Shown here: one piece after another, positions 999 through 62,197 of the stretch
How the letters are laid out: the number at the start of each line of letters is the position of its first letter
Numbering within the stretch: position 1 is the stretch's first letter
Source: Bacteroidia bacterium
Lineage (GTDB): Bacteria > Bacteroidota > Bacteroidia > Cytophagales > Cyclobacteriaceae
NCBI GenBank assembly: GCA_030426345.1
Contig: JAUHYU010000004.1
Coordinates: 1-64,000 of the forward strand
Reading direction: 5' to 3'
Length of the DNA stretch: 64,000 nt
Program-made: the position numbers and the translations under genes
Notes under the pieces: model-generated
Databases searched by the model: none
The model's input: only the letters and a program-made list of their open reading frames with translations
Told to the model about the DNA's origin: nothing

Positions 999-2834
999 CT
1001 AATCCTCCAGCTTATCATACCAATTCACTTTCAGGATTGCCATAGTAATAAACAGCACAACGATGGATATGGTCATGCTCGTATATTCGCGAATAACCAG
1101 ATAAACCGGAATCAGAATCAAGGTCATTTGCCAAACTACAGCCACCGCGCAATTGAACATATCCCTGCCAAAGGAAGTGTTCCGTTCAAATGTCGGATCA
1201 GCGGCTTTTACTTTTTTATAAATCGGATCCCAAAAACCCCAAGGACGTACATTTTTATAGAAGGCCATCAACACGTCTTCATCATCTGCCTTGGTCAGCC
1301 ATGTGCCCAATAGACACCCAAGTGTAGATATAGGCAAAATCACTAAAGGAAAAGCGTAAATAATCGACATATCGGGGAAAACTTTCGGAACCAGCAATGA
1401 ACCTGTCAATCCCGCAACCATCCCCCAAAAATATCCATAGCCATTAAATCGCCACCAAATCCACTTCAGGAAGTTAGCAGCGGCATACCCGCCAAATAAT
1501 GCCGCTGTAATCCATTGCAAAATATCATTGATGCTCGTCACAAAGAAACCAACCCCAATGCCAATTACTACCACGAGTACAGAAGCGGCATAGCTCATTT
1601 TGATGTAGGTGCTATTGGAGGCGGTCGGATTGATGAACCGCTTATAAATATCATTAACAATATAGGCTGGCCCCGCATTGACGTTGGCTGCAAAGGTGGA
1701 CATAAAAGCGGCGATCAATCCCGCCAAAATGATCCCCAATACGCCCGTTGGTATAAAGTTAGATAAAGCGAATGGAAGTATTTTTTCAAAATCAATTACC
1801 CCATTACTAAACAATGTTTCGGGATTGAAATACACCATTCCGATCACACCTAAACCAGCAATCATCAAGTATCTTGGAATAAATAATACCAACGAAACCA
1901 AACCACTCATCAATGCAGATTCCCTTGGGGTTTTGGCGGCAAGTACACGCTGCATATCATAACCGGGAGCCGGCCCGGCAATACTGACCAATATCCCGCG
2001 AAAGATCACGATCATCATAAAAATAGTAAAAAGCTCATAGCCATCTGTCGATAGTTTTTCATTTAATGCCTGATTGATTTGCTCAGGGAATTTTGTCCAT
2101 TCCAAATTGATTTCCCACCCAAAAGAAAGGCTTTTCCAACCTTCCGGAATCAAAGCATCAATCTGAGCACCTGACACCTGCTTCATGGCAATAACCCCGA
2201 TCACAATACATGCTATGGTCATGACGATAAACTGCAAAACCTCAGTAATTACCACGCTATACATCCCTCCTTTCACCACATATAAGGTTGTGAAACTCAT
2301 GATGATCAGCGCGTACATGTGTTCCGATGAAATGTCAACCCCGGCAAAATTAGTACTCAAATCCCATGGTAAAAACATGACCACAAACTTCCCTATCCCC
2401 TCAAAAGAATAGGCGATGAACCCGATCACTGCGACCAAAGCAAAAACCACTACACTGATATGGGAAAGCCTAGCTCCCAGCCCTTCTCCAAAACGTGTTT
2501 TGAGCCATTCTGCACCGGTGAGCACATTGGATCTGCGCATCCAAACTGCCAAAAAAACCATGAGAAATACCTGGTTCCAAACAGGCCACAGCCATGGTAA
2601 CAAGGTGCTTTTTACACCATACACGAATAGAATGGCCACCATCCACATGGTGCCGGTAATGTCAAACATGCCAGAAGCATTGGAAAGACCCAGTAAATAC
2701 CAAGGCATGGTTTTACCACCTAAAAAATAAGAATCCAGATTTTTACTCGCTCGTTTAGAAATCCAAAAACCAAGGACAATAGTGAGCACCAAATATGCAC
2801 AAATGATCGAAATATCTATGGGAGCTAATTGCAT
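999..2834 (-). CDS. Sodium:solute symporter (SSS family)
   Basis: About 611 residues with alternating long hydrophobic segments through the whole protein (roughly 13-15 membrane spans), typical of SSS/SGLT transporters that bring in sugars or organic solutes with sodium. The N-terminus MQLAPIDISIICAYLVLTIV followed by KNLDSYFLGGKTMPWYLLGL is the family hallmark around TM1-TM2. I start at the ATG at 2834 because an upstream in-frame ATG at 2870 would add a polar leader before TM1. The GH130 gene follows on the same strand, so the likely cargo is a beta-mannoside or another plant/algal disaccharide. That assignment rests on context only. Confidence 0.9.
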   Translation of the reverse strand: MQLAPIDISIICAYLVLTIVLGFWISKRASKNLDSYFLGGKTMPWYLLGLSNASGMFDITGTMWMVAILFVYGVKSTLLPWLWPVWNQVFLMVFLAVWMRRSNVLTGAEWLKTRFGEGLGARLSHISVVVFALVAVIGFIAYSFEGIGKFVVMFLPWDLSTNFAGVDISSEHMYALIIMSFTTLYVVKGGMYSVVITEVLQFIVMTIACIVIGVIAMKQVSGAQIDALIPEGWKSLSFGWEINLEWTKFPEQINQALNEKLSTDGYELFTIFMMIVIFRGILVSIAGPAPGYDMQRVLAAKTPRESALMSGLVSLVLFIPRYLMIAGLGVIGMVYFNPETLFSNGVIDFEKILPFALSNFIPTGVLGIILAGLIAAFMSTFAANVNAGPAYIVNDIYKRFINPTASNSTYIKMSYAASVLVVVIGIGVGFFVTSINDILQWITAALFGGYAAANFLKWIWWRFNGYGYFWGMVAGLTGSLLVPKVFPDMSIIYAFPLVILPISTLGCLLGTWLTKADDEDVLMAFYKNVRPWGFWDPIYKKVKAADPTFERNTSFGRDMFNCAVAVVWQMTLILIPVYLVIREYTSMTISIVVLFITMAILKVNWYDKLED

Positions 2835-3041
2835 GGTATTTAGGTTATAATGGTTTGGGATATTTATCAATCAAAGAAAATAGCATAATCGGGAACATCA
2901 AATTTAAAAGCTCTAATAATTCAGACAAATTTTGCGTTTCTTTGCGGAAGTTAAAAAAATCATAGTAAAATCTCTAAAATGGCTAAGGTGTCTTTTCAAG
3001 ATTAAACTATTAGTGCTATTTTTTAATGTGCATTGAATTCC

Positions 3042-4499
3042 ATGATTAAAAAGACACTTTCTGTTTTATTTTTATGCATCGTCGTTTTTATCGGCTATTT
3101 GCTCTTCAATACTTTTCAATTGAAATCTAAGCAAATACATGTTGCGGCTGTCGCCAAAATACAAATAGGTGATTCCGCAGTACACCATCTTTCCCAAGCT
3201 ATTGCTATAAAAACAATTTCGACTGAAAACCCCGAGGAGATGGACACTGTTCTGTTCTCACATTTCATGGATTTTATAGGCAATTCCTACCCTCTGGTTG
3301 ATTCAATACTAGAAAAAAAGATAATCAACCGATACAGTTTGCTTTACAAATGGCAGGGCAAAAATGAAGGTCTAAAACCTGTCGTGCTGGCTGCCCATCT
3401 CGATGTCGTACCCGTTCCAAATGAAGATTTGGCTGAATGGAATTATCCGCCTTTTTCAGGAAAAATTGCAGATGGGGCGATCTGGGGCAGAGGGGCAATG
3501 GACGACAAAGTGGGTATCATTGGTATTTTAGAAGCCGTTGAGCATTTGATGTCCGAGGGTTTTGTTCCTGATAGAACGATCTATCTGGCATTTGGCCATG
3601 ATGAAGAAGTAGGTGGAAAAAACGGCGCAAAATCCATAGCAGATCATTTAAAACAGTCGGGAGTTCAGCCAGAATTTGTGTTGGATGAAGGTTTTGCCAT
3701 TACTCGGGGATTAGTCCCCAATGTGCTCACAGATGTTGCCCTGATTGGGATTTCAGAAAAAGGATTCGCCACAATCAAACTAAGCGCTGAAATAGAAGGT
3801 GGCCACTCCTCCATGCCAAATGAAGAAACAGCCATTGAAGTGATTGCTCGGGCGATCAACAGTTTGGAAGACAATCCCTTTCCTCCAAAAATAACAAACC
3901 CGGTGCAGAAGTTTCTCGAATATGTGGGGCCGGAAATGCGCTTTCAGGATCAACTTGTTTTTGCCAACAATCACTTGTTCCGATCTGCAATAATTAGTGC
4001 CTATCAAAAAAGTGGGTCGGGCCGCGCAGTAGTCCAGACGACCATGGCTCCAACTTTGTTCAATGCCGGGATTAAAGAAAATATTATCCCTTCCAAAGCT
4101 TCTGCTACCCTAAATTTCAGGATATTGCCAGGAACATCGATTCAGGATGTCGTTCAAAAAGTAAAAAGCACCATTAAGGATGATAGGATTCAAATCACAC
4201 TTAGTGACTTTCGCAGCGAACCAAGCAAGATATCAGACACTAACTCGCCCGGCTACCACAAAATCACCCAAAGCATTTTGGAGATTTTTCCTGATGTTAT
4301 CACAGTCCCTAATCTCACAATTGCTGCAACAGACGGAAGATATTATGGTGAAATATGCGATGATATTTACCGTTTTTTACCGATTCGACTTCACCCTGAC
4401 AACATTCACGCTATGCATGGAATAAATGAGCATTTGCCAATAAATGAATTTCATGATGCCATCCGTTTTTACATCCAATTGCTAAAAAACTGTAATTAA
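3042..4499 (+). CDS. M20 family metallopeptidase (PM20D1/CPS1-like)
   Basis: About 485 residues with an N-terminal membrane anchor (MIKKTLSVLFLCIVVFIGYL). M20 zinc ligands and catalytic residues are visible: AAHLDVVPVPN (H119, D121), GRGAMDDKVG (D154), FGHDEEVGG (catalytic E188, ligand E189), VLDEGFA (D215) and a C-terminal histidine in HAMHGINE. The long insert and size match the carboxypeptidase S / PM20D1 branch, which cleaves or forms N-acyl amino acids or dipeptides. It is probably membrane-attached facing the periplasm. A TTG nine bases upstream is in frame, but the ATG is preferred. It diverges from the symporter across about 200 bases that should hold both promoters. Confidence 0.9.
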   Translation: MIKKTLSVLFLCIVVFIGYLLFNTFQLKSKQIHVAAVAKIQIGDSAVHHLSQAIAIKTISTENPEEMDTVLFSHFMDFIGNSYPLVDSILEKKIINRYSLLYKWQGKNEGLKPVVLAAHLDVVPVPNEDLAEWNYPPFSGKIADGAIWGRGAMDDKVGIIGILEAVEHLMSEGFVPDRTIYLAFGHDEEVGGKNGAKSIADHLKQSGVQPEFVLDEGFAITRGLVPNVLTDVALIGISEKGFATIKLSAEIEGGHSSMPNEETAIEVIARAINSLEDNPFPPKITNPVQKFLEYVGPEMRFQDQLVFANNHLFRSAIISAYQKSGSGRAVVQTTMAPTLFNAGIKENIIPSKASATLNFRILPGTSIQDVVQKVKSTIKDDRIQITLSDFRSEPSKISDTNSPGYHKITQSILEIFPDVITVPNLTIAATDGRYYGEICDDIYRFLPIRLHPDNIHAMHGINEHLPINEFHDAIRFYIQLLKNCN

Positions 4500-6394: not shown

Positions 6395-8455
6395 TTACCG
6401 AGCCATTAGAACAACGATGGATCTGTTCGCCACTTTCATGGAATTTGACCCTATTTTTACTCCTTTTTCTATTGAATTAAAATCATCGGGAGATGCTGCC
6501 GCTGTGTCTACTACTTTGCACCAACTCATTTGATCCAACAAAGGCACTTGAAATTCTAATGGTTTCCAATAGGAATTTACCATTACGTGAATCTTTTCGT
6601 TTGCCTTAGGATGAAGAAGGGTAAACGCCAGACTCTGAGAATTGACTGACCAATCCGGTTTATTTAACTTCACCCCGTGCCAGGTAATGTGCGGTTCATC
6701 TATGTCTTCCGAAGTAGCCAGCAGATTCTCTATTCTGAATATTTCAAGGCCTTGTGTAAAACTGATCAATCCCTTAACAAATGACAACACATCTGCATTT
6801 TGATCAACCAGGTCCCAATTCATCCAACTCAGCTCATTATCCTGGCAGTACGCGTTATTATTGCCCTGCTGAGATCGACGCACTTCATCTCCCATCAACA
6901 ACATTGGAGTTCCCTGAGACAGAAAAGTCAAGGTCAAAAAGTTCTTTATCTGCTTTAATCTACGTTCATGGATTTTGGGATCATTTGTATCCCCTTCCTC
7001 ACCACAATTCCAACTATAGTTATCATTGGCACCATCCCTACTATTTTCCAGATTGCTTTCATTGTGTTTGTTATTGTAGCTCACCAAATCGTTCAACGTA
7101 AAGCCATCATGACAAGACACAAAATGTATGCTGCGGTTAGGCTCACGCATAGGATCCATATAGATATCGGGACTTGCCATGATTTTAGAAGCAAATTTAG
7201 ACACCATGCCTTTCTCCCCTTTCATAAATCTGCGGACATGATCCCTGTATTTCCCATTCCACTCTGCCCATCGATCGCCAATAAATGACCCTACCTGATA
7301 CAATCCGGCTGCATCCCAAGCTTCAGCGATAATCTTCGTTCCAGCCAAAACAGGATCAGATTCAATCTCCCAAAGTACCGGAGGGTTTTTGAGCGGTTCT
7401 CCATATTCATCTCTAGATAGCACTGATGCCAGATCAAAGCGAAATCCATCAATATGATATTCTGTCACCCAACTTCGCAGGCAATCCATGATCATCCTTT
7501 TGACAATGGAATGATTTGTATTCAGCGTATTGCCACAGCCTGAATAATCGAGATAATTAGTTTTATCATCATTCAGCATATAATATGCTTTATTTTCCAA
7601 CCCTCTGAAAGAATAAGTCGGGCCATCTAACCCGGCTTCCGCAGTATGGTTAAATACCACATCCAATATCACTTCAATCCCGGCTTGATGTAGTGCCTTG
7701 ACCATCTGCCGAAATTCAGTGGCTACTTCTAAAGGATCATCACTACTTCCATACCCAGCATAAGGAGCAAAAAAAGCCATCTGGCTATATCCCCAATAAT
7801 TAGTAAGCCCAGGTTGAGCATCTTGAGCATCAAAAAATTGAACAGGCATCAATTCTACAGCGGTGATTCCAAGTTCTTTCAGGTAAGGGATTTTCTCTAT
7901 CAACCCAAGATATGTACCCTGTTTAGATGCTTCTACTCCTGAGTTTTTATGTTTTGTAAATCCACCAACATGCATTTCATAGATGATGGACGATGAATAT
8001 GGGCGCTCAATGGGAGAATCCCCTTCCCAATCAAAATTATGTGGATCAATAACTACACATTTCATGGCTTTTCCATAGTTATTCCCCGGGCTCTTTGCAG
8101 CTTCCCTTGAATATATCTTATGACCCGCCAAGCCTCTTGTATAAGGGTCTATCAACAACTTATCCGAATCAAACATGTCGCCGGTAGTTGGATTTTTTGG
8201 CCCAAAAACCCGGTATCCATAAAGCTGTCCGGGCTTTAGATTTGGAATAAAAGTGTGCCAATAATAAAAAGTCCTGTTTTTGTCAGGATCCATAGAAATA
8301 ACTGATGACGGTGTGGCATCATCTTCATGATCAAACAATAGCAGGTCAACCCTCGTAGCATGCTTAGAAAAAATACTGAAATTTACCCCTTCAGGGTAAT
8401 ATGTCGCACCAAGCGGGTGACTTTTCCCATGAGGGATATTTACAAAACTTACCAT
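6395..8455 (-). CDS. glgX: Glycogen debranching enzyme GlgX (GH13 isoamylase type)
   Basis: 686 residues, full length. An N-terminal CBM48-like domain (GATYYPEGVNFSIFSKHATRVDLLLFD split over residues 17-42) precedes a GH13 barrel with DVVFNH (265-270), FRFDLAS with nucleophile D341, IIAEAWD with acid/base E378 and VSCHDGFTL with D450. It hydrolyses alpha-1,6 branches of glycogen or limit dextrin in the cytoplasm. No other glycogen gene is adjacent. It follows the sugar-kinase operon on the same strand after a 69-base gap and may be read through from it. Confidence 0.93.
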   Translation of the reverse strand: MVSFVNIPHGKSHPLGATYYPEGVNFSIFSKHATRVDLLLFDHEDDATPSSVISMDPDKNRTFYYWHTFIPNLKPGQLYGYRVFGPKNPTTGDMFDSDKLLIDPYTRGLAGHKIYSREAAKSPGNNYGKAMKCVVIDPHNFDWEGDSPIERPYSSSIIYEMHVGGFTKHKNSGVEASKQGTYLGLIEKIPYLKELGITAVELMPVQFFDAQDAQPGLTNYWGYSQMAFFAPYAGYGSSDDPLEVATEFRQMVKALHQAGIEVILDVVFNHTAEAGLDGPTYSFRGLENKAYYMLNDDKTNYLDYSGCGNTLNTNHSIVKRMIMDCLRSWVTEYHIDGFRFDLASVLSRDEYGEPLKNPPVLWEIESDPVLAGTKIIAEAWDAAGLYQVGSFIGDRWAEWNGKYRDHVRRFMKGEKGMVSKFASKIMASPDIYMDPMREPNRSIHFVSCHDGFTLNDLVSYNNKHNESNLENSRDGANDNYSWNCGEEGDTNDPKIHERRLKQIKNFLTLTFLSQGTPMLLMGDEVRRSQQGNNNAYCQDNELSWMNWDLVDQNADVLSFVKGLISFTQGLEIFRIENLLATSEDIDEPHITWHGVKLNKPDWSVNSQSLAFTLLHPKANEKIHVMVNSYWKPLEFQVPLLDQMSWCKVVDTAAASPDDFNSIEKGVKIGSNSMKVANRSIVVLMAR

Positions 8456-8524
8456 TTCCTATGAAAAAATTGTCATTAAACAGGGCAAGTTTCAAAAATT
8501 AAATGACTTATAAAACCCGAAAGG

Positions 8525-10021
8525 CTATATCAATGAAATGAATTTATGATAATAGTTTTCCAATCCACTAAGTTCATTCTTTGGTACTGGCCGCTGATCG
8601 ATGGAAAACAACGATCCGAGAGACAAAACATCAACCTGTTCCAAAGCTGCTTTCGCTGTAATTGCCGCACCAAACGCGGAAGCCTCTTTAAGATCTGTCA
8701 GGTAAAAATTAGATTCCGGATAAAATGAGGTCATCAATGTGTTGTACGAATCATTTCTACTGAATCCGCCTTCGGTGAATACATTCATCCCTTGTGTCAT
8801 GTCTGCTCGATCAAACGAAACTTTCGTTTGAATGGCCAATGATAAATTCAATACCGCTAGTGCCTTTTCATAGTCATCAAAAAACTCGGGAATTGCCTCT
8901 CCAGTTTCAATTTGCTCCAACTCGAAAACCTTTCCATGTTCCACTATACGAGGTAAGGAATCAGGAAACTGACCAATACCGCGTGCCACGCTTGGCAAAA
9001 TAAACAATGAATTATCATTCACAATTTGTTGCACCAGTTTCTGATTGAATACAGGAAAATCTGCCCTTCCATGGATTTTCCGTAGTATTCCGGCGTAGTG
9101 TTCAAACTCCATTCCGCCAAGGAAAATAGCCGTTTTGATGGGCTTCCAAAATGCATTCATGTTGTAAAACACTACTTTACCCAGTTCATCCTTTTCAAAT
9201 TTCACTTCCTCTTTTTCATTCATAATTACACACCACGTCCCGGTGGAATTGAGCAAAAAAGGTTCATTTTTCGAAATGATATATGGGAGCAACGAAGCGT
9301 TTGAATCGTGGATGCCCACTGTGACGATTGTGTCTTTTGAAAGGCCTGTGCGCTCGGCAATTTCCGGTTTAATGCTCCCCAGCGAATCCCATGGATTTTT
9401 GAAGCTTTTTGGCAATAGATGCCTAATATTTAGTCTATCGACAACATCAGACCATTTATTATTTTCAAAATCCCACAAGTAGGTATGGTTTCCCACATAA
9501 GTAGGATCTGCACAAGATTCTCCAGTCAACCAAAACCCAAATAGCTGTGCATAAAGCAACAAGTGCTTCACTTTGGAAAACTCATCGGGAAAGAGCTGCT
9601 GAGAAAAGCAAATCCCCTTGGCAGGATTGATCAATAAATTGAAATTTGGAGTTGCGGTTGACCTCTGCAAATCAACCGGATCACCACATTTTTCATAAAA
9701 CTGCTGATGAAATTCCTTTCCCGGATCGGTGGTATATGCCACTTGAGGCACAACATTATTGGCATCGTCGTCCACAAGCGAATAGGTGGCTCCATGGCCT
9801 GATGTGGCGATCACCTTGATATCGTATTGCCCCGAAAAATGCGATAATGCATCTAAAATCCATGACTTCAACGCATCAACATCATCGAACTCCACACCAT
9901 CTTTTATGATTTCAGGAATTCTTGTGAATTTCTCATCCACAAGTTTTAGATCCTGATCAAAAATCAGAATCTTTTTATTGGTTTTTCCAATATCAAGAAC
10001 AGCAATATGGTAATTTTCCAT
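8525..10021 (-). CDS. FGGY-family carbohydrate kinase
   Basis: 498 residues. N-terminal phosphate-1 motif AVLDIGKTNKKILIFD, central HDSNASLLPYI and STGTWCVIMN, and C-terminal EGGFSRNDSYNTLMTSFYP match the rhamnulokinase/L-fuculokinase side of the FGGY family, which phosphorylates ketoses or polyols with ATP. It is the last gene of the operon that runs down from the E2 gene at 19667. The ATG lies inside a copy of the dispersed motif (10018-10039), and two further copies sit inside the gene (9389-9410 and 9846-9864). The first of these encodes PKSFKNPWD. The sugar is not deducible; the aldolase upstream suggests that a ketose-1-phosphate is made. Confidence 0.87.
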   Translation of the reverse strand: MENYHIAVLDIGKTNKKILIFDQDLKLVDEKFTRIPEIIKDGVEFDDVDALKSWILDALSHFSGQYDIKVIATSGHGATYSLVDDDANNVVPQVAYTTDPGKEFHQQFYEKCGDPVDLQRSTATPNFNLLINPAKGICFSQQLFPDEFSKVKHLLLYAQLFGFWLTGESCADPTYVGNHTYLWDFENNKWSDVVDRLNIRHLLPKSFKNPWDSLGSIKPEIAERTGLSKDTIVTVGIHDSNASLLPYIISKNEPFLLNSTGTWCVIMNEKEEVKFEKDELGKVVFYNMNAFWKPIKTAIFLGGMEFEHYAGILRKIHGRADFPVFNQKLVQQIVNDNSLFILPSVARGIGQFPDSLPRIVEHGKVFELEQIETGEAIPEFFDDYEKALAVLNLSLAIQTKVSFDRADMTQGMNVFTEGGFSRNDSYNTLMTSFYPESNFYLTDLKEASAFGAAITAKAALEQVDVLSLGSLFSIDQRPVPKNELSGLENYYHKFISLI

Positions 10022-21044: not shown

Positions 21045-21319
21045 TCTGATTTATTTTGCTTACTTTCATACTATCAGTCAGCCCAAATCATCGAAAAGCA
21101 GATAAAGGCTAATAAACCATGATATTTCCATGGTTTTTAATTGGCAATGAAAAGTACCATTCCACAAAAATAAAATCCTCAAATTGTTCCCCTCACTTTG
21201 CCACAAATTAAACCCTTTTTTATTAAGTTGGCTTTTCATGCAAATAGACATGCTTTTTAGGCATTCTAGCAAGAATTAGAGATAAAGACTTAAGCTTATT
21301 AATGTATAAAAACCCAAAA

Positions 21320-22375
21320 ATGAAAAAAACATCAAAACAGGGAAACGTATTTTCTCGTCGCCAGTTTATCTGTGCATCAGCAACTTTGGTTGCTGGATTA
21401 TCTACCGGCATCCATCATGCGTTTGGAGCACCTGCCATTATTAAAAATTATGGCAAGCCAAATTCTAAAATCAATGGTGTTCAGATAGGTGCCATCACCT
21501 ATTCATTCCGAAGTTTACCTGATCAGAGTGCCGAGGCAACTTTGAAATATATTACAGAATCAGGGTTGAGTGCGGTAGAATTGATGGGTGGCCCGGCAGA
21601 AAGTTTTGCCGGCATACCACAAAGCAATGTTGACAGAGGAGCATATAACCAATTGAATAAAAAGTCCAAATCCGCTGAAGGATTAACGAATTCAGAAAAG
21701 AAGGAATTTGCTGAAATAAAAGAACAAATGGAAGCTCATAGTAAAAAAGTAGCTGACTGGAGGGCATCTGTTTCCATGGATAAATTCGTGGAATTTAGAA
21801 AAATGTATGCCAGTGCCGGTGTAAAAATTTATGCATTCAAACCATCAGCATTTGACAGACAAAGTACAGATGCAGAATTGGACTATGGATTTCGGGCAGC
21901 AAAGGCCTTGGGGGCAACTCACGGCACATTGGAATATCCAAGGGATGAACAGCGAACCAAAAAACTTGCCGACATTGCCGGCAGTCATAAAATGTTTGTC
22001 GCCTATCACGGACATACCCAACAAACACCAACATTATGGGATGCAGCTTTGCAAGAGTCAAAGTACAATGCTGTAAACCTTGATGCGGGACATTATGTCG
22101 CTGCGGGCAACCCAAGTGTGATTGATTTTATCAACGTCAAACATGATAGAATCAAAAGCATGCATGTAAAAGACCGACAAACAAAAGAGCATGGGCAGGC
22201 CAATTTACCATGGGGACAGGGGGACACTCCGATCAAGGAAATACTGCAAACGCTACGCGATAAAAAATATAAATTTCCAGCATCAATCGAACTGGAATAC
22301 CAAATTCCACAAGGATCTAATGCCATAAAAGAGGTTCAAAACTGTCTTGAATACTGTCGAAAGGCCTTGGGGTAA
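21320..22375 (+). CDS. Tat-exported sugar phosphate isomerase/epimerase-like TIM-barrel protein
   Basis: About 351 residues. The leader holds a twin-arginine motif (SRRQFICASA) and a hydrophobic stretch ending HHAFGAPA. The mature part is an AP-endonuclease-2/xylose-isomerase-like TIM barrel with VQIGAITYSFRSLPD, GATHGTLEYPRD, FVAYHGHTQ, VNLDAGHYVAAG, IKSMHVKDRQ and IELEYQI, which together supply the usual Glu/Asp/His metal site. Periplasmic members are common next to Bacteroidota sugar-utilisation genes, but this copy stands alone. I start at the second ATG because it directly precedes the lysine-rich leader; 21302 is also possible. Confidence 0.85.
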   Translation: MKKTSKQGNVFSRRQFICASATLVAGLSTGIHHAFGAPAIIKNYGKPNSKINGVQIGAITYSFRSLPDQSAEATLKYITESGLSAVELMGGPAESFAGIPQSNVDRGAYNQLNKKSKSAEGLTNSEKKEFAEIKEQMEAHSKKVADWRASVSMDKFVEFRKMYASAGVKIYAFKPSAFDRQSTDAELDYGFRAAKALGATHGTLEYPRDEQRTKKLADIAGSHKMFVAYHGHTQQTPTLWDAALQESKYNAVNLDAGHYVAAGNPSVIDFINVKHDRIKSMHVKDRQTKEHGQANLPWGQGDTPIKEILQTLRDKKYKFPASIELEYQIPQGSNAIKEVQNCLEYCRKALG

Positions 22376-22677
22376 TTTTGGAACACTAAGAATAAGATCA
22401 TGAAATGCCTTCTTGTATTAAATGTAAGAAGGCTTTTCCATGGAATTTTGATGCTTTTAGTTACATTTTTGAGAATGCCCGACAGGGCAGGTATATTAAG
22501 CTTGTCGGCACCAAGGAAATCAATAATGCAAATTAAATCTCTATAACCGAGATTAAGGTTCTGTCGGGGCATTCATTAGATGGCTTATGTTTGTCTGCTT
22601 TATTATGGATTTTTCGGGATAATTCGACAGAATAATGAATTGGTTTCCGAATGAAGCTAACTTGAACAGTATGGAAG
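22376..22677. other. Convergent intergenic region with motif copy and structured inverted repeat
   Basis: No gene is seen in these 302 bases. A copy of the dispersed motif lies at 22438-22459, and a weaker one (ATGGATTTTTCGGGA) near 22603. At 22473-22574 arms GAATGCCCGACAG and CTGTCGGGGCATTC enclose about 75 bases that contain two smaller stems (CTTG/CAAG and AATCTC/GAGATT). The region separates the plus-strand TIM-barrel gene from the minus-strand ATPase gene. Confidence 0.6.
22473..22574. repeat. Structured inverted repeat, possible mobile or REP-like element
   Basis: Terminal arms of 13-14 bases differ by one extra G. Between them are a CTTG/CAAG hairpin and an AATCTC/GAGATT hairpin, giving a possible three-way fold. 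The GACAGGGCAGG core resembles GACAGGCAGG found inside the copA gene at 55772. No transposase is near. Confidence 0.45.
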
Positions 22678-24591
22678 CTACGCACTCTTCACATTCTTGG
22701 GCTTGACAATAATCTTATCCATTATTTTCTTTAGCGATAAGGGAGGTTTTTCACAATTAAACTGGTCAAGTAAAAGATTTTTGAATTGTATATATTCTAT
22801 GTTGTTTTTACCACAGAAGGCTTTTAACAGTTCTCTACCTTTGCATTTTTCTTTCCAAGTATTGTTTTTTATTGCGGCCTTCATTAGTTCAAAAGCTTCT
22901 TTTTCAGCTACTTGAAACTCTGGTCTTTTAAACTTTAATGAAACTTCTAATTCCTTTGATTGAAATATTTCTTTTTCAACTTCATTTTTAAGAGAGGCAA
23001 TTTTAGCGTCATAGATTGCTTTACCTAAAGAAGCTAAATGGTGAGAATCTGTTAATAGTTTTTTTAATTCATTAGTTATATCTAATGCAGATTTATAAGT
23101 ACAACTCTTTCTTTTTATTTTAGAGATTAAAGAAAATATAATGGCTTCATCAATAATATAATTTTCTACATGATAGACTGGTAATCGAAATAATCTTTTA
23201 CCTCCTGTTGGATCATCTACTATTCTTTGATAATCGCCATCTACAATACTATAAAAATGTTCATATCCAATACTTGATGTCAGTAATTCATTAACTTTTT
23301 CGGATGTTTTTCTAACTGTACCTGAATTACCTGCTGGAATATAACTGACTTGATTTTCATTTGATGGAAAAAAGGTTTCGTAAATCTCAATATCAGAAGA
23401 AGATGTTTCTCCCTCAATAAAAATAATCTTTCGATTTAAACTAACAAACCCTTTGTTACCCATTAATTCTGATAACAGAACATACTTGTCCTTATCATCC
23501 GTTATTTTTGTAAATTGGTTTTCGTCTAATTTTGGGTGTTTAATTAATGTATACAAGGATTCTGTGCCAGATTCAATCATCATATTCGGTGAATGAGTAG
23601 TAATAAAGAATTGGTTCCCTTCGCTTAATTCCTTTAATGACTTTAAATAGCTTGTTTCTAACTCAGGATGTAGGTGAGCATCAGGCTCGTCGAATAAAAT
23701 AACGGAATCTCTAGTACCAAATTTTTTAAAATGAACATATGTAAACAAAATTTCCTTCTCTCCAGAACTCAATCCATTTATGTCAATTTCACCCCTGGGT
23801 GTATTTATAATAAACCTAAATGGTGAAACAGTCAAATCAATATCTATAAACTCCATAGGAGCTAAAAATTTTTTGAAAAAATCTTTTATAGCGTTTAGAG
23901 AGTCGATATTGTAAGAATTTCCGTTTTTTTGAGCTAGCTGAATTCTCCGCAAGTCATCAATTTTAATACCTAATAAATATTGCTTTATATTATTGTATTT
24001 ATTACTTCCTCGAATTAGTATTTGTTTTTGACTATCACGGTTTAGAAAACTAGTACTCCAACTATTCACTTCTTGCTTTTGGTATTCTCTATTTGAACTA
24101 AAATAGTCAAAAACGCTCACTCCAGCTTTGTGCTCATATAGCAATTGAAATACAGCTGCATCAGATCCTTCAATTTGATCTAAATAACTTTTGTTATCAT
24201 TAATAAATGTGTCATCAATATCATTTGGGTCATGTTTTAGATTAGGGTCATCATTTCTTTTTAATATAACTTTAATAGTATGTTCCTCCGGAAGGCTATG
24301 CCTACCTGCAAATTTCTTATTAATATATTCAATCTCTTCGATTGTAAATTGAAAAGTTACTTGGATTGACGTGTTTTGGCTATCAGCAGAAATCACACTA
24401 GTATCGAATTGAAATCGTTGTTTTTTGTCAACCTGATGTGCTAAAAAATTTCTAATCGTCAACAAAGCTTCTAAAATAGAACTTTTACCGCTGCCATTTC
24501 CTCCACAGATAACAACAAAATCTGGAAGATTGGCAACTTCAGCCAATTGAATATTTTTATAATTTTCAATTCTGAATGCCTTAATTCTCAT
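22678..24591 (-). CDS. AAA ATPase with C-terminal TOPRIM/DUF4435-like domain (fused PARIS-like or OLD-like)
   Basis: 637 residues. ABC/SMC-type ATPase: Walker A GGNGSGKSS (30-38), signature LSSGEKE (274-280), Walker B VILFDEPDAHLHPEL (297-311) and switch histidine in TTHSPNM (333). After residue 385 comes a TOPRIM-like block with IFIEGETSSSD (E393) and YSIVDGDYQ (D451, D453), the E...DxD pattern of OLD nucleases and DUF4435/AriB proteins. PARIS defence systems pair an ATPase (AriA) with DUF4435 (AriB), and fused forms are known. The gene is clearly more AT-rich than its neighbours, carries none of the dispersed motif and is isolated, which fits acquisition by transfer. OLD-family endonuclease is the alternative. 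Confidence 0.75.
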   Translation of the reverse strand: MRIKAFRIENYKNIQLAEVANLPDFVVICGGNGSGKSSILEALLTIRNFLAHQVDKKQRFQFDTSVISADSQNTSIQVTFQFTIEEIEYINKKFAGRHSLPEEHTIKVILKRNDDPNLKHDPNDIDDTFINDNKSYLDQIEGSDAAVFQLLYEHKAGVSVFDYFSSNREYQKQEVNSWSTSFLNRDSQKQILIRGSNKYNNIKQYLLGIKIDDLRRIQLAQKNGNSYNIDSLNAIKDFFKKFLAPMEFIDIDLTVSPFRFIINTPRGEIDINGLSSGEKEILFTYVHFKKFGTRDSVILFDEPDAHLHPELETSYLKSLKELSEGNQFFITTHSPNMMIESGTESLYTLIKHPKLDENQFTKITDDKDKYVLLSELMGNKGFVSLNRKIIFIEGETSSSDIEIYETFFPSNENQVSYIPAGNSGTVRKTSEKVNELLTSSIGYEHFYSIVDGDYQRIVDDPTGGKRLFRLPVYHVENYIIDEAIIFSLISKIKRKSCTYKSALDITNELKKLLTDSHHLASLGKAIYDAKIASLKNEVEKEIFQSKELEVSLKFKRPEFQVAEKEAFELMKAAIKNNTWKEKCKGRELLKAFCGKNNIEYIQFKNLLLDQFNCEKPPLSLKKIMDKIIVKPKNVKSA

Positions 24592-24658: not shown

Positions 24659-24679
24659 AATGGAATTTTAATGCCTTTG
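24659..24679 (-). repeat. Dispersed motif copy, intergenic
   Basis: ATGGAATTTTAATGCCTTTG carries an extra A in the TGGATT half, as in the copies at 22438 and 38242. It lies between the ATPase gene and the lipoprotein gene. Confidence 0.55.
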
Positions 24680-24709: not shown

Positions 24710-26323
24710 TTAAAAAACCACCAACTTCTTACCATCCGTAATTTCCAAATCAACACCATCGATCAACTGATTTCCTCCATATTGCTTTTGTTCTTGCTTG
24801 TCGAAATCCACCAACTGATATTGCGCGGCTTTATCGGCGGTAAACCATTCCGGAAATTGGTTAATTCTAGGCCAGTCGATGGGCAGTTTCATGTTTTCTT
24901 TATACCTCGGTTTATCAAAATACAGCTTGCCTGTCCATGGTTTTTTGGCACTTATTGAGATCAGCAAGCTGTCTCCATTTTGCTCTGCCCCAAGGATAAG
25001 GTCTTCCCGCCATGGCTGCACGTACAATCCTTTGCTTTTCCATAAGTTGTACATGATAGTCGTCCTGGCAAAATTACCATCTCCGTGCCAGCCCTCAATG
25101 ATGCCACTTTCCAGCTGCTTGCCCCACATCACTTTTATTTCGCTGTCCATCCATTTGGGAACTTCAGAATTGGGAATGCGGTTATACAAATTCAAGGCAC
25201 TTTCTATCGCATCTGCATAGCCGTCGGAACTTCCTCCCTCCCAATCATGGTTGGTGTATTTGTGCAGATTAGAAAATATTTTCAGGATCGCTTCTTTGTA
25301 TTCCGGGGTATGGTCCAACAGAAATACGTCATAATATCCATTAAGTGTGTATCCCCAAGTGTCAGCAATACGCTCTTGCTCAATCTCCCCTGTTTGCGGA
25401 TTGATTGCATCATAAAACATCCCATCCTCATTTCTACCCACTTCCAGAATTCTGTCTAGCATTTCATGCAATGGTTTTTGATAGGCTTTTTTCTTATCCG
25501 GCTTGGCATAACTTGTAGCAACGTACAACTCGCAAAGCCCCGAAATCAGTTCGCAACCATGATCGCGTAACCTGAGATAATCTAAGTCCCGTGTTGGAAA
25601 ATGATCGCCAAGCAGATAATAATCGCCAATTTTTATGGCCCAATCCAGCAACTGCTCATCGCCTGTCATCCAATAAACTCTGGAAAGAGTCTGTAGCATT
25701 TCACCATTTACTTCTTCACGCGTAGAGTTTTTCTTTCCTCCTCTATGGATTTGATCAGCAATATCTATTTCATTTTTCAAATCATACAACATCTCAATCA
25801 TCCGCTCAGACCATGGGCTCTGCCCCAACCATTCCGTCAGAGGCAGCAACCCATCTTTGATATATTCTGAAGTACCAAACACAATCTTAGCTATATCAAC
25901 TTTTTCATTTTCAAAGCCCTTTTTGGAAAATGAATATGTGTCCGGTAAACTATTTACCCTAGAAGTTAGCCGCTTTTCCGTATGCAGCATGTCCAACATT
26001 CTGCCATTGAACATTTGCTGATCCACAAAAAAGGATGTGAGCACCATGAAGGGGTAATTGTCGGCTGCGGCATCCTGTGCGTTCCAAATGTCTTTGGAAG
26101 CTTCGAGGTTTCTGGGGATAAGTCCTGTTTCCGGATCGCTTTGATCCAACCAGCCTTGAACGAAATTTTGACAGCGAACAAAACCTTCATTGGCTTCAAT
26201 GCCATTTTCATGCGCTTTGGCAAAAAGGAGACCATCCTGAGCAGAAACCTGAAATGTAGGCTGCGGACTACCGCAAGAGGAAATGATAAAAAAAACTAAA
26301 GCAATAGATGAGAATGTCTTCAT
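24710..26323 (-). CDS. Exported lipoprotein with predicted alpha-barrel, function unknown
   Basis: 537 residues starting MKTFSSIALVFFIISSCGSP; the lipobox ISSC predicts a lipoprotein. The body is helical and rich in Trp/Tyr (VYWMTGDEQLLDWAIKIGDY, ESALNLYNRIP, EGWHGDGNFARTT), resembling the (alpha/alpha)6 toroids of glycosidases and lyases, and the end is beta-rich (SLLISISAKKPWTGKLYFD). I do not recognise the family. Acidic residues around GGSSDGYADAIES and IIEGWHGDGN are candidates for a catalytic site. It heads toward the same direction as ThuA and an esterase upstream, so a role in surface glycan breakdown is plausible but unproved. Confidence 0.6.
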   Translation of the reverse strand: MKTFSSIALVFFIISSCGSPQPTFQVSAQDGLLFAKAHENGIEANEGFVRCQNFVQGWLDQSDPETGLIPRNLEASKDIWNAQDAAADNYPFMVLTSFFVDQQMFNGRMLDMLHTEKRLTSRVNSLPDTYSFSKKGFENEKVDIAKIVFGTSEYIKDGLLPLTEWLGQSPWSERMIEMLYDLKNEIDIADQIHRGGKKNSTREEVNGEMLQTLSRVYWMTGDEQLLDWAIKIGDYYLLGDHFPTRDLDYLRLRDHGCELISGLCELYVATSYAKPDKKKAYQKPLHEMLDRILEVGRNEDGMFYDAINPQTGEIEQERIADTWGYTLNGYYDVFLLDHTPEYKEAILKIFSNLHKYTNHDWEGGSSDGYADAIESALNLYNRIPNSEVPKWMDSEIKVMWGKQLESGIIEGWHGDGNFARTTIMYNLWKSKGLYVQPWREDLILGAEQNGDSLLISISAKKPWTGKLYFDKPRYKENMKLPIDWPRINQFPEWFTADKAAQYQLVDFDKQEQKQYGGNQLIDGVDLEITDGKKLVVF

Positions 26324-37065: not shown

Positions 37066-37101
37066 AAAAGCCTTTAAAATCCATGGATTTTAAAGGCTTT
37101 T
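37066..37101. terminator. Perfect 36-bp palindrome made of two opposed motif copies; bidirectional terminator candidate
   Basis: Two copies of the dispersed motif meet head to head at CCATGG. Each arm is AAAAGCCTTTAAAATCCA. It lies 7 bases after the CDF stop and 36 bases from the stop of the convergent esterase gene. T runs flank the stem in both directions, which fits termination of both transcripts. Confidence 0.75.
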
Positions 37102-45774: not shown

Positions 45775-45814
45775 AAAAAATCCTTTAAAATCCATGGATT
45801 TTAAAGGATTTTTT
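45775..45814. terminator. Perfect 40-bp palindrome made of two opposed motif copies; bidirectional terminator candidate
   Basis: Each arm is AAAAAATCCTTTAAAATCCA, joined at CCATGG with no loop. It lies 4 bases after the last plus-strand gene and about 100 bases from the stop of the convergent SGNH gene. Here the GCC of the motif is replaced by TCC in both arms, so the symmetry has been kept by matched changes. Confidence 0.72.
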
Positions 45815-58430: not shown

Positions 58431-60232
58431 AAAAGATATTAAACAATAAATATATCCGATTCGGCCTAGCGCTGAGTGTCGGAATGCTTCTCGGTTGGTT
58501 CATCAAACCATCAAATCATCGCACCATTACATCATCAGCACATCAGCACATCGACGAATCAAACCATCATACCATCATACCATCAAATAATCAATCATGG
58601 ACTTGTTCCATGCATCCCCAAATCAAGAGAAATGAACCGGGGCAATGCCCGATCTGTGGCATGGAATTAATACCACTTTCTGCTGACGAAAAGGGTCAAA
58701 ATCCCATGGCCGTGAGTATGTCGTCAACTGCTATGAAATTAGCAAACGTGCAAACGATGATCGTGAGCAGCGGGGACGCTGAAAAATCAATCCGGCTGAA
58801 TGGAAAAATCCAAGCAGACGAAAGGATGCTTTTCACGCAATCGACACATATTCCCGGAAGGATTGAAGAGTTAAGAGTCAATTTTACTGGCGAATATGTG
58901 TCGAAAGGACAGGTAATTGCCAAGGTCTATTCACCTGATCTAGTCACAGCACAGAAGGAATTATTTGAAGCACAAAAAATCCAAGAATCCCAGCCGGCCC
59001 TTTATAATGCCGCAAAAGGAAAGTTAAAAAACTGGAAACTCTCGGATCAACAAATCAACAATATTTTAACTTCAGGAAAATCGATTGACCAATTTCCTGT
59101 TTTGGCCAATGCCTCAGGATACGTCACACAAAAACTAGTCAACCTTGGTGATTATATCAAACTTGGACAGCCCATCTATGAAATTGCAGATTTCTCTAAA
59201 GTATGGATTCTGTTCGATGTGTATGAATCTGACATGCGTTGGATCCACAAAGGCGATAAAATAACGTTTGAGATCCAATCCCTTCCCGGGGAAGCGTTTC
59301 ATGGAAATATCAGCTATTTGGATCCGGTAATCGATCTTAAAACAAGAGTTGCCAAGGCGAGGGTTGAAGTCAGAAATACGGAACAAAAATTGAAACCTGA
59401 GATGTTTGTGAGCGGTATTTTGGCAACGGCTCCTAAAGGAAAAGGAAATTCCATTGTCGTTCCAAAATCTGCGGTGATGTGGACAGGAAAGCGGTCTGTG
59501 GTTTACGTCAAAAACACCACTGACCAAGGCATAAGTTTCATGATGCAGGAGGTAACTTTGGGGGCTGAATTAGGAGATGGGTTTGTGATCAAATCCGGTC
59601 TGCAGTCAGGGGAAGAAATAGCTATCAACGGCACATTCAGCATCGATGCCGCTGCACAGCTCGATGGCAAACCCAGCATGATGAACCCCGAAGGCGGTGT
59701 GGCCATGACCGGTCACAACCATGGAAAAATGTTCGATAATTCCATGAAAAAACCATCGACTGAATCCGTTCAAAAAACTGAAATTAGTTCGGAAGCAAAA
59801 ATGGCTTTGACACCGATATTTCAATCCTATTTTGAAATGAAAAACGCCTTGACGGCTGATGATTTTGCGAAAGCGCAAAACTCAGGAAAATCCATGCGCA
59901 AAGAATTGGCCACAATCAACATGTCATTGTTCACAGGGAACTCTCATGGAATTTGGATGGATTATTCATCCAAACTAAGTAATGCTCTGCAGCACATTGA
60001 TCATCTGACAACTATAGATGCATTGAGGAAGGATTTTATGTCCGTTTCTACTGCGATGATTGGCATTTCTGAATCTTTCCATCCTATGAATGAAATATTA
60101 TATGTCCAACATTGCCCGATGGCAAATACCAACAAAGGGGCAGATTGGCTGAGCGAAGAAAAGGAAATTATCAACCCATATTTTGGCCAGGCCATGTTGA
60201 GTTGTGGGGAAACTACCAAAACCATCCAATGA
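58427..60232 (+). CDS. cusB: CusB-type adaptor with heavy-metal-binding and DUF3347 domains
   Basis: 601 residues. One membrane anchor (YIRFGLALSVGMLLGWFI), a Ser/His/Thr/Ile-rich spacer (about 26-58), HMBD domain WTCSMHPQ...CPICGMELIP (about 58-85), adaptor core (KVYSPDLVTAQKELFEAQ, ASGYVTQKLVNLGDYIKLGQ) and a C-terminal DUF3347 domain (about 465-600) with VQHCPMANTNKGADWLS. The DUF3347 part probably binds copper. The spacer is encoded by the low-complexity tract 58501-58596. Next gene overlaps by ATGA. Confidence 0.92.
   Translation: MKKILNNKYIRFGLALSVGMLLGWFIKPSNHRTITSSAHQHIDESNHHTIIPSNNQSWTCSMHPQIKRNEPGQCPICGMELIPLSADEKGQNPMAVSMSSTAMKLANVQTMIVSSGDAEKSIRLNGKIQADERMLFTQSTHIPGRIEELRVNFTGEYVSKGQVIAKVYSPDLVTAQKELFEAQKIQESQPALYNAAKGKLKNWKLSDQQINNILTSGKSIDQFPVLANASGYVTQKLVNLGDYIKLGQPIYEIADFSKVWILFDVYESDMRWIHKGDKITFEIQSLPGEAFHGNISYLDPVIDLKTRVAKARVEVRNTEQKLKPEMFVSGILATAPKGKGNSIVVPKSAVMWTGKRSVVYVKNTTDQGISFMMQEVTLGAELGDGFVIKSGLQSGEEIAINGTFSIDAAAQLDGKPSMMNPEGGVAMTGHNHGKMFDNSMKKPSTESVQKTEISSEAKMALTPIFQSYFEMKNALTADDFAKAQNSGKSMRKELATINMSLFTGNSHGIWMDYSSKLSNALQHIDHLTTIDALRKDFMSVSTAMIGISESFHPMNEILYVQHCPMANTNKGADWLSEEKEIINPYFGQAMLSCGETTKTIQ
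58501..58596. repeat. Low-complexity ACCATCAT-type tract inside the cusB coding sequence
   Basis: About 95 bases of CATCAAACCATC, CATCAGCACATCAGCACATC and ACCATCATACCATC units. Read on the minus strand they are GATGGTTTGATG-like, the same pattern as the tract before the S23 gene. In cusB they encode a spacer without obvious fold. Confidence 0.7.
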
Positions 60233-60360
60233 AAGCATGTTGCAAAACCGAAGAAGATAATCCATCAAAATTAAAAAAGTGGATTAGCCGATTTGTCTGG
60301 AGCATTGTCATTTTGCTTCTGACGAGCATCATTATAATTCAAATAATTTCTAACCAATAA
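60229..60360 (+). CDS. 43-residue single-span membrane peptide
   Basis: It starts MKACCKTEEDNPSKLKKW and continues with one hydrophobic span (FVWSIVILLLTSIIIIQII). The ATG overlaps the cusB stop as ATGA, which indicates translational coupling, and the next gene begins 12 bases later. The CC pair at the cytoplasmic end could hold Cu(I). It is short enough to be missed by many annotations. Confidence 0.65.
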   Translation: MKACCKTEEDNPSKLKKWISRFVWSIVILLLTSIIIIQIISNQ

Positions 60361-60372
60361 AAACTATTTATC

Positions 60373-60969
60373 ATGAAAAGAGTAATCTTATTTTCCACAC
60401 TATTTGCCTTTACCTTGGCAGCTTGCAACAGCAAATCTTCCAATCAAAGCAATAGCGAGCATGAGCACGCCGAAGGCCATGACCATAGCTCAATGCCCTC
60501 AAAATCCATGAAAAACGAGTCATCAGCCCAAAAGAGCAACAATACAACTGTGATTCTGGATGCCTATCTGTCTATAAAAAATGCTTTGGTAAAAGATGAC
60601 CAGGGTGCAGCACGCAAAGCCGGAGCAGCACTGGCTGCCAGCATTGACAATTTTGATATTAGTTCTTTCAAGGCTTCTGAGCAACAAGAATTGAAAGACA
60701 TCCTGGAAGTAGCCAAGGAACACAGAGAGCATATTTCCAACAGCAAAATCGACCACCAACGCGAACATTTCGAAGCTCTTAGCAAAGACATCAAGGATTT
60801 GGTGACAATAGCAGGAGCTGACCGCACGCTTTACCAACAATATTGCCCTATGTACGACGGCAATAAAGGAGGCATGTGGCTAAGTGCTTCTGATGAAGTA
60901 ATGAACCCACTTTTTGGTAGCAAAATGCCAAAATGTGGTTCTGTAAAAGAAACCATTTCGATGAAATGA
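60373..60969 (+). CDS. DUF3347 lipoprotein
   Basis: 198 residues, lipobox in FTLAAC at about 17. A His/Met-rich segment (EHEHAEGHDHSSMPSKSMKN) precedes a DUF3347 domain (ILDAYLSIKNALVKDD...YQQYCPMYDGNKGGMW) that is homologous to the C-terminus of the CusB encoded two genes upstream. A periplasmic copper-binding role is likely from composition and context. A motif copy at 60492-60510 encodes MPSKSMK within the His/Met-rich linker. The stop overlaps the next ATG (ATGA). Confidence 0.85.
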   Translation: MKRVILFSTLFAFTLAACNSKSSNQSNSEHEHAEGHDHSSMPSKSMKNESSAQKSNNTTVILDAYLSIKNALVKDDQGAARKAGAALAASIDNFDISSFKASEQQELKDILEVAKEHREHISNSKIDHQREHFEALSKDIKDLVTIAGADRTLYQQYCPMYDGNKGGMWLSASDEVMNPLFGSKMPKCGSVKETISMK

Positions 60970-61421
60970 TAAAAGTGCTGAAAATATCTATTGGGGTATT
61001 TATAGTTGCCTTGGTGGGGATCCAGTTTTTCCCCATCCAGCGCAACGAAAGTAGCAAGCCTCCCGGCACAGGTTTTATAGAATTGTATAAGCCCACACCA
61101 GCCGTTAAAAACATATTGGCTAATTCCTGTTTGGATTGTCACAGCAATCAAACAAAATATCCGTGGTACAGCCATGTTCAACCAGTGGGTTTGCTTTTGC
61201 AATACCACATTGAGCAGGGCAAATCAGAACTAAACCTTTCCGAATTTGGCGATTACTCAGACAGAATGAAAAAGGATAAGCTAAGATCTATGATCAGTCA
61301 GATTGAAGATGAGGAAATGCCGTTGCCATCCTATTTGCTTATCCATAAGGAAGCAAAGCTTACCGTAAACAATAAGGAGGTATTACTTGAATTCCTGACA
61401 AAATTGAAAAGTACTTTCTAA
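60966..61421 (+). CDS. Haem-binding domain protein (c-type)
   Basis: About 151 residues, N-terminal membrane anchor (VLKISIGVFIVALVGIQFF) and one CxxCH haem motif CLDCHSNQTKYPWYSHVQPV at about 58-77. This is the Haem_bd family seen in Bacteroidota, where it often accompanies DUF3347 and copper genes. It probably carries electrons in the periplasm. It is the last gene of the copper island, coupled to the DUF3347 gene by an ATGA overlap. Confidence 0.85.
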   Translation: MIKVLKISIGVFIVALVGIQFFPIQRNESSKPPGTGFIELYKPTPAVKNILANSCLDCHSNQTKYPWYSHVQPVGLLLQYHIEQGKSELNLSEFGDYSDRMKKDKLRSMISQIEDEEMPLPSYLLIHKEAKLTVNNKEVLLEFLTKLKSTF

Positions 61422-61536
61422 ATTTCCCTTTCCTAGTAACATAATATATCAATACCATTAGGCCATTAAGATTATTAAATTATGATGTGCTGATTTATTT
61501 TTCTAATAAGATTCATTAAAGTCTTATCTTGCGTTT

Positions 61537-62133
61537 TTGATCAGAAAAGTGCCAAAAAGTCAAGGTGAATTGGAAGAAAATCAAAATCATATTGAAGACA
61601 ATCAGTTATGGCAGAGGATAATTCAAAATGATCCATCCGCAATTTCTATTCTTTACAAAAGGCACTTCCAGGTTTTGTACAGTTTTGGATTTAAAATAAG
61701 CCAGGACGAGGAGCTGAGCAAGGACAGCATTCATGATGTTTTTATATATCTCTGGGAGCATCGCGAAAATCTCCATGATGTACGCAATGTCAGGTCGTAC
61801 TTATTGAAATCGGTGAAAAACCGTGCATTAAAATCGCTCAACAAGCAAATCAGAACTATACATATCGACAACCATGAAGACTTTCCTGTAGAACTGGTAT
61901 TTTCAGAAGAAAGCTATATGATTAAAAATCAGGAAGATGTAAAACTCAAAGAACGTCTGAATGAGGCTATTAGCCAGCTTACCAAACGGCAGAAAGAACT
62001 TATATATCTGTACTACTATGAGGGAATGACTCCAATGGAAATTCAAGAAGTTACTTCCTTACAATACCAATCAGTTAAGAACCACATATTCAAGGCATTA
62101 TCAACGATCAGAAAAGTTTTCAATAAAAAATAA
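61537..62133 (+). CDS. ECF sigma-70 family RNA polymerase sigma factor
   Basis: 198 residues. Region 2 is LYKRHFQVLYSFGFKISQDE and HDVFIYLWEH; region 4 is QLTKRQKELIYLYYYEGMTP and SVKNHIFKALSTIRK. The start is TTG at 61537 or GTG at 61549; no ATG is available. With the following FecR and SusC-like genes this is a second surface-signalling locus. Confidence 0.9.
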   Translation: MIRKVPKSQGELEENQNHIEDNQLWQRIIQNDPSAISILYKRHFQVLYSFGFKISQDEELSKDSIHDVFIYLWEHRENLHDVRNVRSYLLKSVKNRALKSLNKQIRTIHIDNHEDFPVELVFSEESYMIKNQEDVKLKERLNEAISQLTKRQKELIYLYYYEGMTPMEIQEVTSLQYQSVKNHIFKALSTIRKVFNKK

Positions 62134-62144
62134 AAATTATTATT

Positions 62145-62168
62145 AAAAAAAAGAGTACTAAATCCATG
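62145..62168 (+). repeat. Dispersed motif copy, intergenic
   Basis: AAAAAAAAGAGTACTAAATC then CATG is a diverged plus-orientation copy, between the sigma-factor and FecR genes. Confidence 0.45.
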
Positions 62169-62197
62169 AAGCTGGGTCATATAAGAAATGACCCAAA

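Follow-up and report, generated by a model that had tools for sequence, protein, structure and literature searches.

A fused AriAB gene that probably encodes a single-chain PARIS-type abortive-infection protein in a Bacteroidia bacterium

The minus-strand gene at positions 22678 to 24591 of the window, the 64,000 nt stretch of DNA that was analysed, probably encodes a single-chain PARIS-type abortive-infection protein. It is a distant member of the fused PARIS kind that has already been described. Our analysis adds that the gene is not a recent fusion of one of the sampled split AriA-AriB pairs, and that the assembly holds, as a second system, a two-gene PARIS located next to an AbiE pair.

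The gene is intact, with an ATG start, 637 codons and no internal stops. A sequence-only reading of this DNA had placed complete ABC-ATPase motifs, a glutamate E393 and a DxD motif at residues 451–453 in one chain of 637 residues, and all were found at those positions. The features of the gene are as follows:

22678–24591, minus strand: fused AriAB (PARIS-type) gene, 637 aa (ORF, Pfam, PADLOC)
23536–24591, minus strand: ABC-type sensor ATPase (AAA_15/AAA_21), residues about 1–352 (Pfam; structure model)
24481–24504, minus strand: Walker A, GGNGSGKS, residues 30–37 (sequence; invariant positions in the 47-row alignment)
23758–23772, minus strand: ABC signature, LSSGE, residues 274–278 (sequence; 47-row alignment)
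23686–23703, minus strand: Walker B, VILFDE, residues 297–302 (sequence; 47-row alignment)
23437–23535, minus strand: short connector, residues about 353–385, with one strand, one helix and few disordered residues (model; H333–E393 spacing)
22681–23436, minus strand: AriB-like TOPRIM/DUF4435 nuclease domain, residues 386–637 (Pfam DUF4435; AriB is the best fold match)
23413–23415, minus strand: TOPRIM glutamate E393 (invariant in 47 rows)
23233–23241, minus strand: TOPRIM D451-G-D453 (both Asp invariant in 47 rows)
23158–23175, minus strand: YHVENY motif, residues 473–478 (47-row alignment; conservation partly by construction)

The alignment of 47 rows consists of the window protein and 46 of 77 fetched loci, hand-picked for intact ORFs; the other 31, which were truncated, frameshifted, over-extended or similar to rows already kept, were left out by hand. 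Residues G30, N32, G33, G35, K36, R168, G277, E278, D301, E302 and H333 are invariant in the ATPase part, as are E393, G394, D400, D451 and D453 in the TOPRIM part. H474, E476 and N477 are invariant too, partly by construction, because the search pattern for most of the loci contained HxEN.

PARIS has been defined by the combination of AAA_15/AAA_21 with DUF4435, in two-gene and single-gene forms, and reported in 5.2% of genomes (Rousset 2022, PMC9122126); the single-gene forms described there bear out the statement of the sequence-only reading that the AriA-AriB pair is known as fusions. According to the same account, fusions were detected with profiles of the authors' own making, and the two-gene form with thresholds of 27 bits for AAA_21, 32 for AAA_15 and 27 for DUF4435. 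The window protein scored 86.5, 81.5 and 38.2 bits with these three Pfam models, above the curated cut-off in each case and above the corresponding two-gene thresholds, which by this domain definition makes the window gene a PARIS of the single-gene form. A PADLOC search, which the earlier reading had proposed, returned the fused-PARIS model AriAB (PDLC02981) across the whole chain (273.8 bits, 9e-82, profile positions 1–691 of 694), followed by PtuA PDLC00271 (113 bits), AriA PDLC02979 (92 bits) and mad3 (92 bits). The name of a PADLOC model is in itself no proof of function. Each of the 47 rows, that of the window protein among them, has a match to the AriAB model, and DUF4435 is recognised in 25 of the 47 family members, the close relative L040 not being among them.

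The C-terminal half is predicted to be an AriB-like TOPRIM domain with conserved acidic catalytic residues. Modelled alone (pLDDT 85, pTM 0.83), it was compared with solved structures, as the earlier reading had suggested, and VIA-align placed AriB highest: AriB chain 8ux9_A of the PARIS complex gave Z 12.5 (rmsd 5.0, 212 residues aligned) and AriB chain 8v46_D gave Z 12.2, above OLD (8.2), GajA (6.1) and retron Eco2 (5.1). With the same model, a Foldseek search of the PDB yielded nothing that reached E 0.001, and the top of its list consisted mostly of RadA chains with low TM-scores. Sequence comparison did not recover AriB either: at E 10 the C-terminal sequence profile matched nothing in the PDB, not even AriB; the split AriB of a Lichenicola plasmid had no PDB match; the host's own split AriB had three weak matches, all to chains other than AriB; and a profile comparison of the C-terminal domain with the host's split AriB gave a probability of 11%. 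Because the Foldseek matches are non-significant and sequence profiles miss AriB, the grounds for assigning the domain to AriB are DUF4435, the PADLOC profile and the VIA-align comparison of structures. Together, the full-length AriAB match, DUF4435 above its cut-off and the best structural fit of the C-terminal domain, which is to AriB, favour the fused PARIS option that the sequence-only reading had put forward.

The ATPase half scores no lower against PtuA than against AriA, whether profiles or folds are compared. In the full-length model (mean pLDDT 81), the best fold matches of the ABC ATPase (residues 1–380) were PtuA chains at Z 24, with AriA at Z 18, a difference that may arise because AriA is larger and carries insertions. 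To place this domain, we built an ATPase tree of 45 domains: 20 of the 47 fused rows, 3 rows of a second fused model, 7 AriA (6 of 9 loci, three frames shorter than 350 aa being left out, and the Lichenicola plasmid copy) and 15 PtuA (from 30 loci; 16 were tried, one lacking a usable ORF). This unrooted tree joins PtuA with split AriA (96/97) and keeps both separate from the fused proteins; the split AriA proteins form a single group (88/83). Constraining split AriA to group with the window subclade was rejected (p-AU 0.0075), the group having been named after the tree was seen. With no root and a small AriA sample (7), the tree is silent on whether PtuA or AriA is nearer. The ATPase half is, in any case, not nested among split AriA, and the window gene is therefore no recent fusion of a sampled AriA-AriB pair.

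Relatives of the protein are scattered. Single-sequence scans of genome contigs and viral contigs found no relative; a query built from an alignment, with most weight on the C-terminal half and its conserved motifs, found 74 loci in a search of one genome per species and a further 3 in viral contigs. The tree of 47 shows the fused AriAB family scattered across many phyla, and within it the window protein, a Riflebacteria protein (40% identical to the window protein, the nearest) and a protein from a Promethearchaeota MAG (38%) form a separate subclade (100/100); since both of these relatives come from metagenome bins, their host labels are unsure. The three proteins are 601–637 aa long, compared with about 700 aa for the nearest large group. 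The Riflebacteria gene lies near genes for a DpnII-MboI-type endonuclease and a protein kinase. Identity to most of the family is about 20–26%, including the plasmid copies of Kovacikia and Lichenicola, and full-length relatives about 25% identical are found on one cyanobacterial and one alphaproteobacterial plasmid. Within the phylum, the AriAB profile at 1e-20 matched 4 of 296 sampled genomes, the window's own included, and at E 1e-10 it matched none of 6 other genomes of the genus.

The composition of the gene sets it apart from its surroundings. Its GC content (0.303) is the lowest of any of the window's 38 ORFs that reach 150 aa, the others averaging 40.7%, and its GC3 is 0.221, corresponding to z-scores of −3.8 and −4.1 on the same set; the gene is thus as AT-rich as the sequence-only reading held. 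The description of the gene as isolated also stands, for both flanks consist of metabolic genes or genes without a Pfam match. The neighbours are a TIM-barrel sugar-isomerase-like gene, which lies downstream and is convergent, a gene without a Pfam match, a ThuA-domain gene and a hydrolase; no defence gene is found among the immediate neighbours. The flanking gene at 24710–26323 was found in 3 of the 6 other genomes of the genus and that at 21302–22375 in 2 of the 6. In the four stretches compared within the genus the flanking genes are non-adjacent, and no empty insertion site could be demonstrated. The window holds no tRNA gene. Between 22300 and 24800, promoter-like sites are at chance level and there are two terminator-like sites (0.7 in shuffles), of which that at 22407–22433, just past the neighbouring plus-strand gene, is the only one outside the AriAB gene. 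Patchy spread, absence from the 6 other genomes of the genus and outlying GC content fit the reading of a mobile defence gene.

Direct repeats at 22440–22458 and 24660–24678 flank the AriAB gene and resemble a motif dispersed through the window; they may be due to chance, since the same repeat list holds other two-copy matches that are at least as good. The dispersed motif, its core taken as AATCCATG, occurs 37 times in the window (6.1 expected from shuffles), with 22 copies within ORFs and 15 between them, and with palindromic double copies at 37078–37089 and 45789–45800; many copies resemble AAAAAGC followed some five bases later by AAATCCATG. No copy of AATCCATG lies between 19356 and 27381, in line with the earlier remark that the gene lacks the motif. 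This absence says little, because a gene of 1.9 kb would be expected to hold about one copy.

The assembly also contains a two-gene PARIS, on contig C119 at about 60366–62530, where AriA overlaps AriB by 4 bases. AriA (429 aa) scores 128 bits with the PADLOC AriA profile, and its best solved relative is AriA (1.6e-16); AriB (292 aa) scores 43 bits with PADLOC AriB and 40 bits with DUF4435. The pair directly follows AbiEi and AbiEii, the whole stretch spanning about 58490–62530 of the contig (L134:6491-10531). The assembly is a draft with an estimated contamination of 1.57%, and C119 may come from the same organism as the window gene. Three N6_Mtase genes are also present in the host assembly (C111:24686-25597, C164:5539-6447 and C127:2748-3725); that on C111 is type-I-like, with 517 bits to a type I methyltransferase model. 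On the Lichenicola plasmid (L038, NZ_CP053715.1), a fused AriAB gene at 1947–4109 is followed, 2.6 kb on, by an ATPase/DUF4435 pair at 6712–8567, with a MazE/MazF-family pair between the two. Near the fused genes, 3562 stop-to-stop frames of at least 100 aa at the 77 loci were searched for split AriA/AriB with two weak query pairs, and none matched AriB. Fused and split PARIS together are documented in two cases, which do not establish a trend.

The resemblance of the ATPase to PtuA raises the possibility that a Septu- or retron-type PtuA-like ATPase has captured an AriB-like nuclease that replaces its HNH partner and retains a PtuA-style trigger and assembly. Besides the fold scores, the PtuA profile favours this account, with 113 bits against 66 for AriA PDLC04164, the best profile for the host's own split AriA, which itself shows the reverse (128 bits against at most 81 for PtuA). 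However, the ATPase tree groups PtuA with AriA (96/97) rather than with the fused proteins, no HNH nuclease gene (PtuB) adjoins the AriAB gene, and the gap in Z may reflect the larger size and insertions of AriA; we consider such a capture, which partly overlaps with the PARIS-type explanation, unlikely. Quite unlikely, in our view, is a distinct single-chain nuclease of the OLD superfamily, with an AriB-like fold but with DNA nicking like that of GajA and OLD instead of tRNA cleavage, which would be PARIS by domain make-up only. An ATPase-TOPRIM order in one chain is that of OLD classes 1–3, the ATPase tree separates the fused proteins from split AriA, 11 uncharacterised OLD clades have been reported (PMC12796447), and a review regards it as unsettled whether the fused AriAB proteins make up an OLD class of their own (PMC10568477). 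Against this, AriB beats OLD by 4 Z units for the C-terminal domain, and the OLD-like TOPRIM family PF20469 does not match the window protein even at E 1 and matches only 1 of the 47 family members. OLD-class proteins, the alternative named by the sequence-only reading, thus come out as the weaker option.

The same reading held that closest relatives of a housekeeping RecF/SMC type, without a nuclease domain, would speak against a role in phage defence. A RecF/SMC/Rad50-type repair protein has some similarity on its side, since SMC_N matches the window protein at 55.9 bits and SMC heads reach Z 20 in the ATPase fold list. Yet the relatives found are not of this kind, all 47 rows matching AriAB; the TOPRIM catalytic residues are invariant and the gene is absent from the 6 other genomes of the genus, which makes a housekeeping role highly improbable.

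The PARIS-type reading carries with it a question of mechanism. In two-gene PARIS, an AriA hexamer is reported to hold AriB until a trigger such as Ocr causes AriB release, upon which AriB dimerises and cleaves tRNA-Lys and others (PMC12409363, PMC11455837). Whether the fused form works differently is a question raised by review PMC10568477, and our literature search, which had two 2024 structure papers outside its scope, found no experimental study of fused PARIS. By analogy with the two-gene system, the ATPase module would form a ring or other oligomer that keeps the nuclease inactive, and would sense a phage protein, typically a restriction inhibitor; the TOPRIM domain would then cleave host tRNAs with two metal ions, and translation would stop. 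The distance from the H-loop histidine (H333) to the TOPRIM glutamate (E393) is 58–67 residues in all 47 rows, and the corresponding tails of two split AriA/AriB pairs sum to 47 and 51 residues. The connector is mostly ordered in the model, with residues 380–384 disordered. Because the tether is short and has few flexible residues, release of a free nuclease is unlikely, and we therefore infer activation in place. This is the most likely mode predicted for fused AriAB: rearrangement of the ATPase would unite two tethered TOPRIM domains where they stand, a switch that would be nearer to GajA/OLD than to split AriA-AriB.

More tentatively, and with somewhat less confidence than doubt, we propose that fused AriAB represents more than a two-gene PARIS whose stop codon has disappeared, namely a separate, old lineage of tethered sensor-nucleases, in which a different ATPase branch is joined to an AriB-like tRNase, activation occurs in place and different triggers allow coexistence with two-gene PARIS. 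The published account of PARIS consists of AriB release and dimerisation, which a fused chain cannot simply follow, and with this chain and its relatives it could thus be tested directly which step activates the nuclease. Where one genome holds both forms of PARIS, it is natural to ask whether the phage proteins that they sense differ.

Among known systems, the window protein is most like single-gene PARIS (AriAB PDLC02981; Rousset 2022, PMC9122126), with which it shares the ATPase-DUF4435 order, a full-length match, the catalytic residues and a patchy distribution, but it is only about 20–26% identical to most of the fused family and lies in a separate subclade. With two-gene PARIS (8ux9, 8v46; PMC12409363) it has in common the AriB fold (Z 12.5), an AriA-like ATPase fold (Z 18) and the order of the parts, whereas it is one chain without simple AriB release and its ATPase falls outside split AriA in the tree. 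AriA has been placed among OLD-type ABC ATPases (PMC12839542), and IbfA and HEC-04 are described as single-chain ATPase-TOPRIM phage-defence proteins (PMC12111858). OLD proteins of classes 1 and 2 (P2 Old, GajA) likewise combine an ABC ATPase and TOPRIM in one chain; the C-terminal domain of the window protein, however, prefers AriB (12.5 against 8.2 and 6.1), has no OLD-like TOPRIM Pfam match, and no GajB UvrD-like helicase gene lies among the four neighbours checked. PtuA (Septu, retron I-A) provides the closest ATPase fold (Z 24), but its partner is an HNH nuclease, whereas the nuclease of the window protein is a fused TOPRIM domain.
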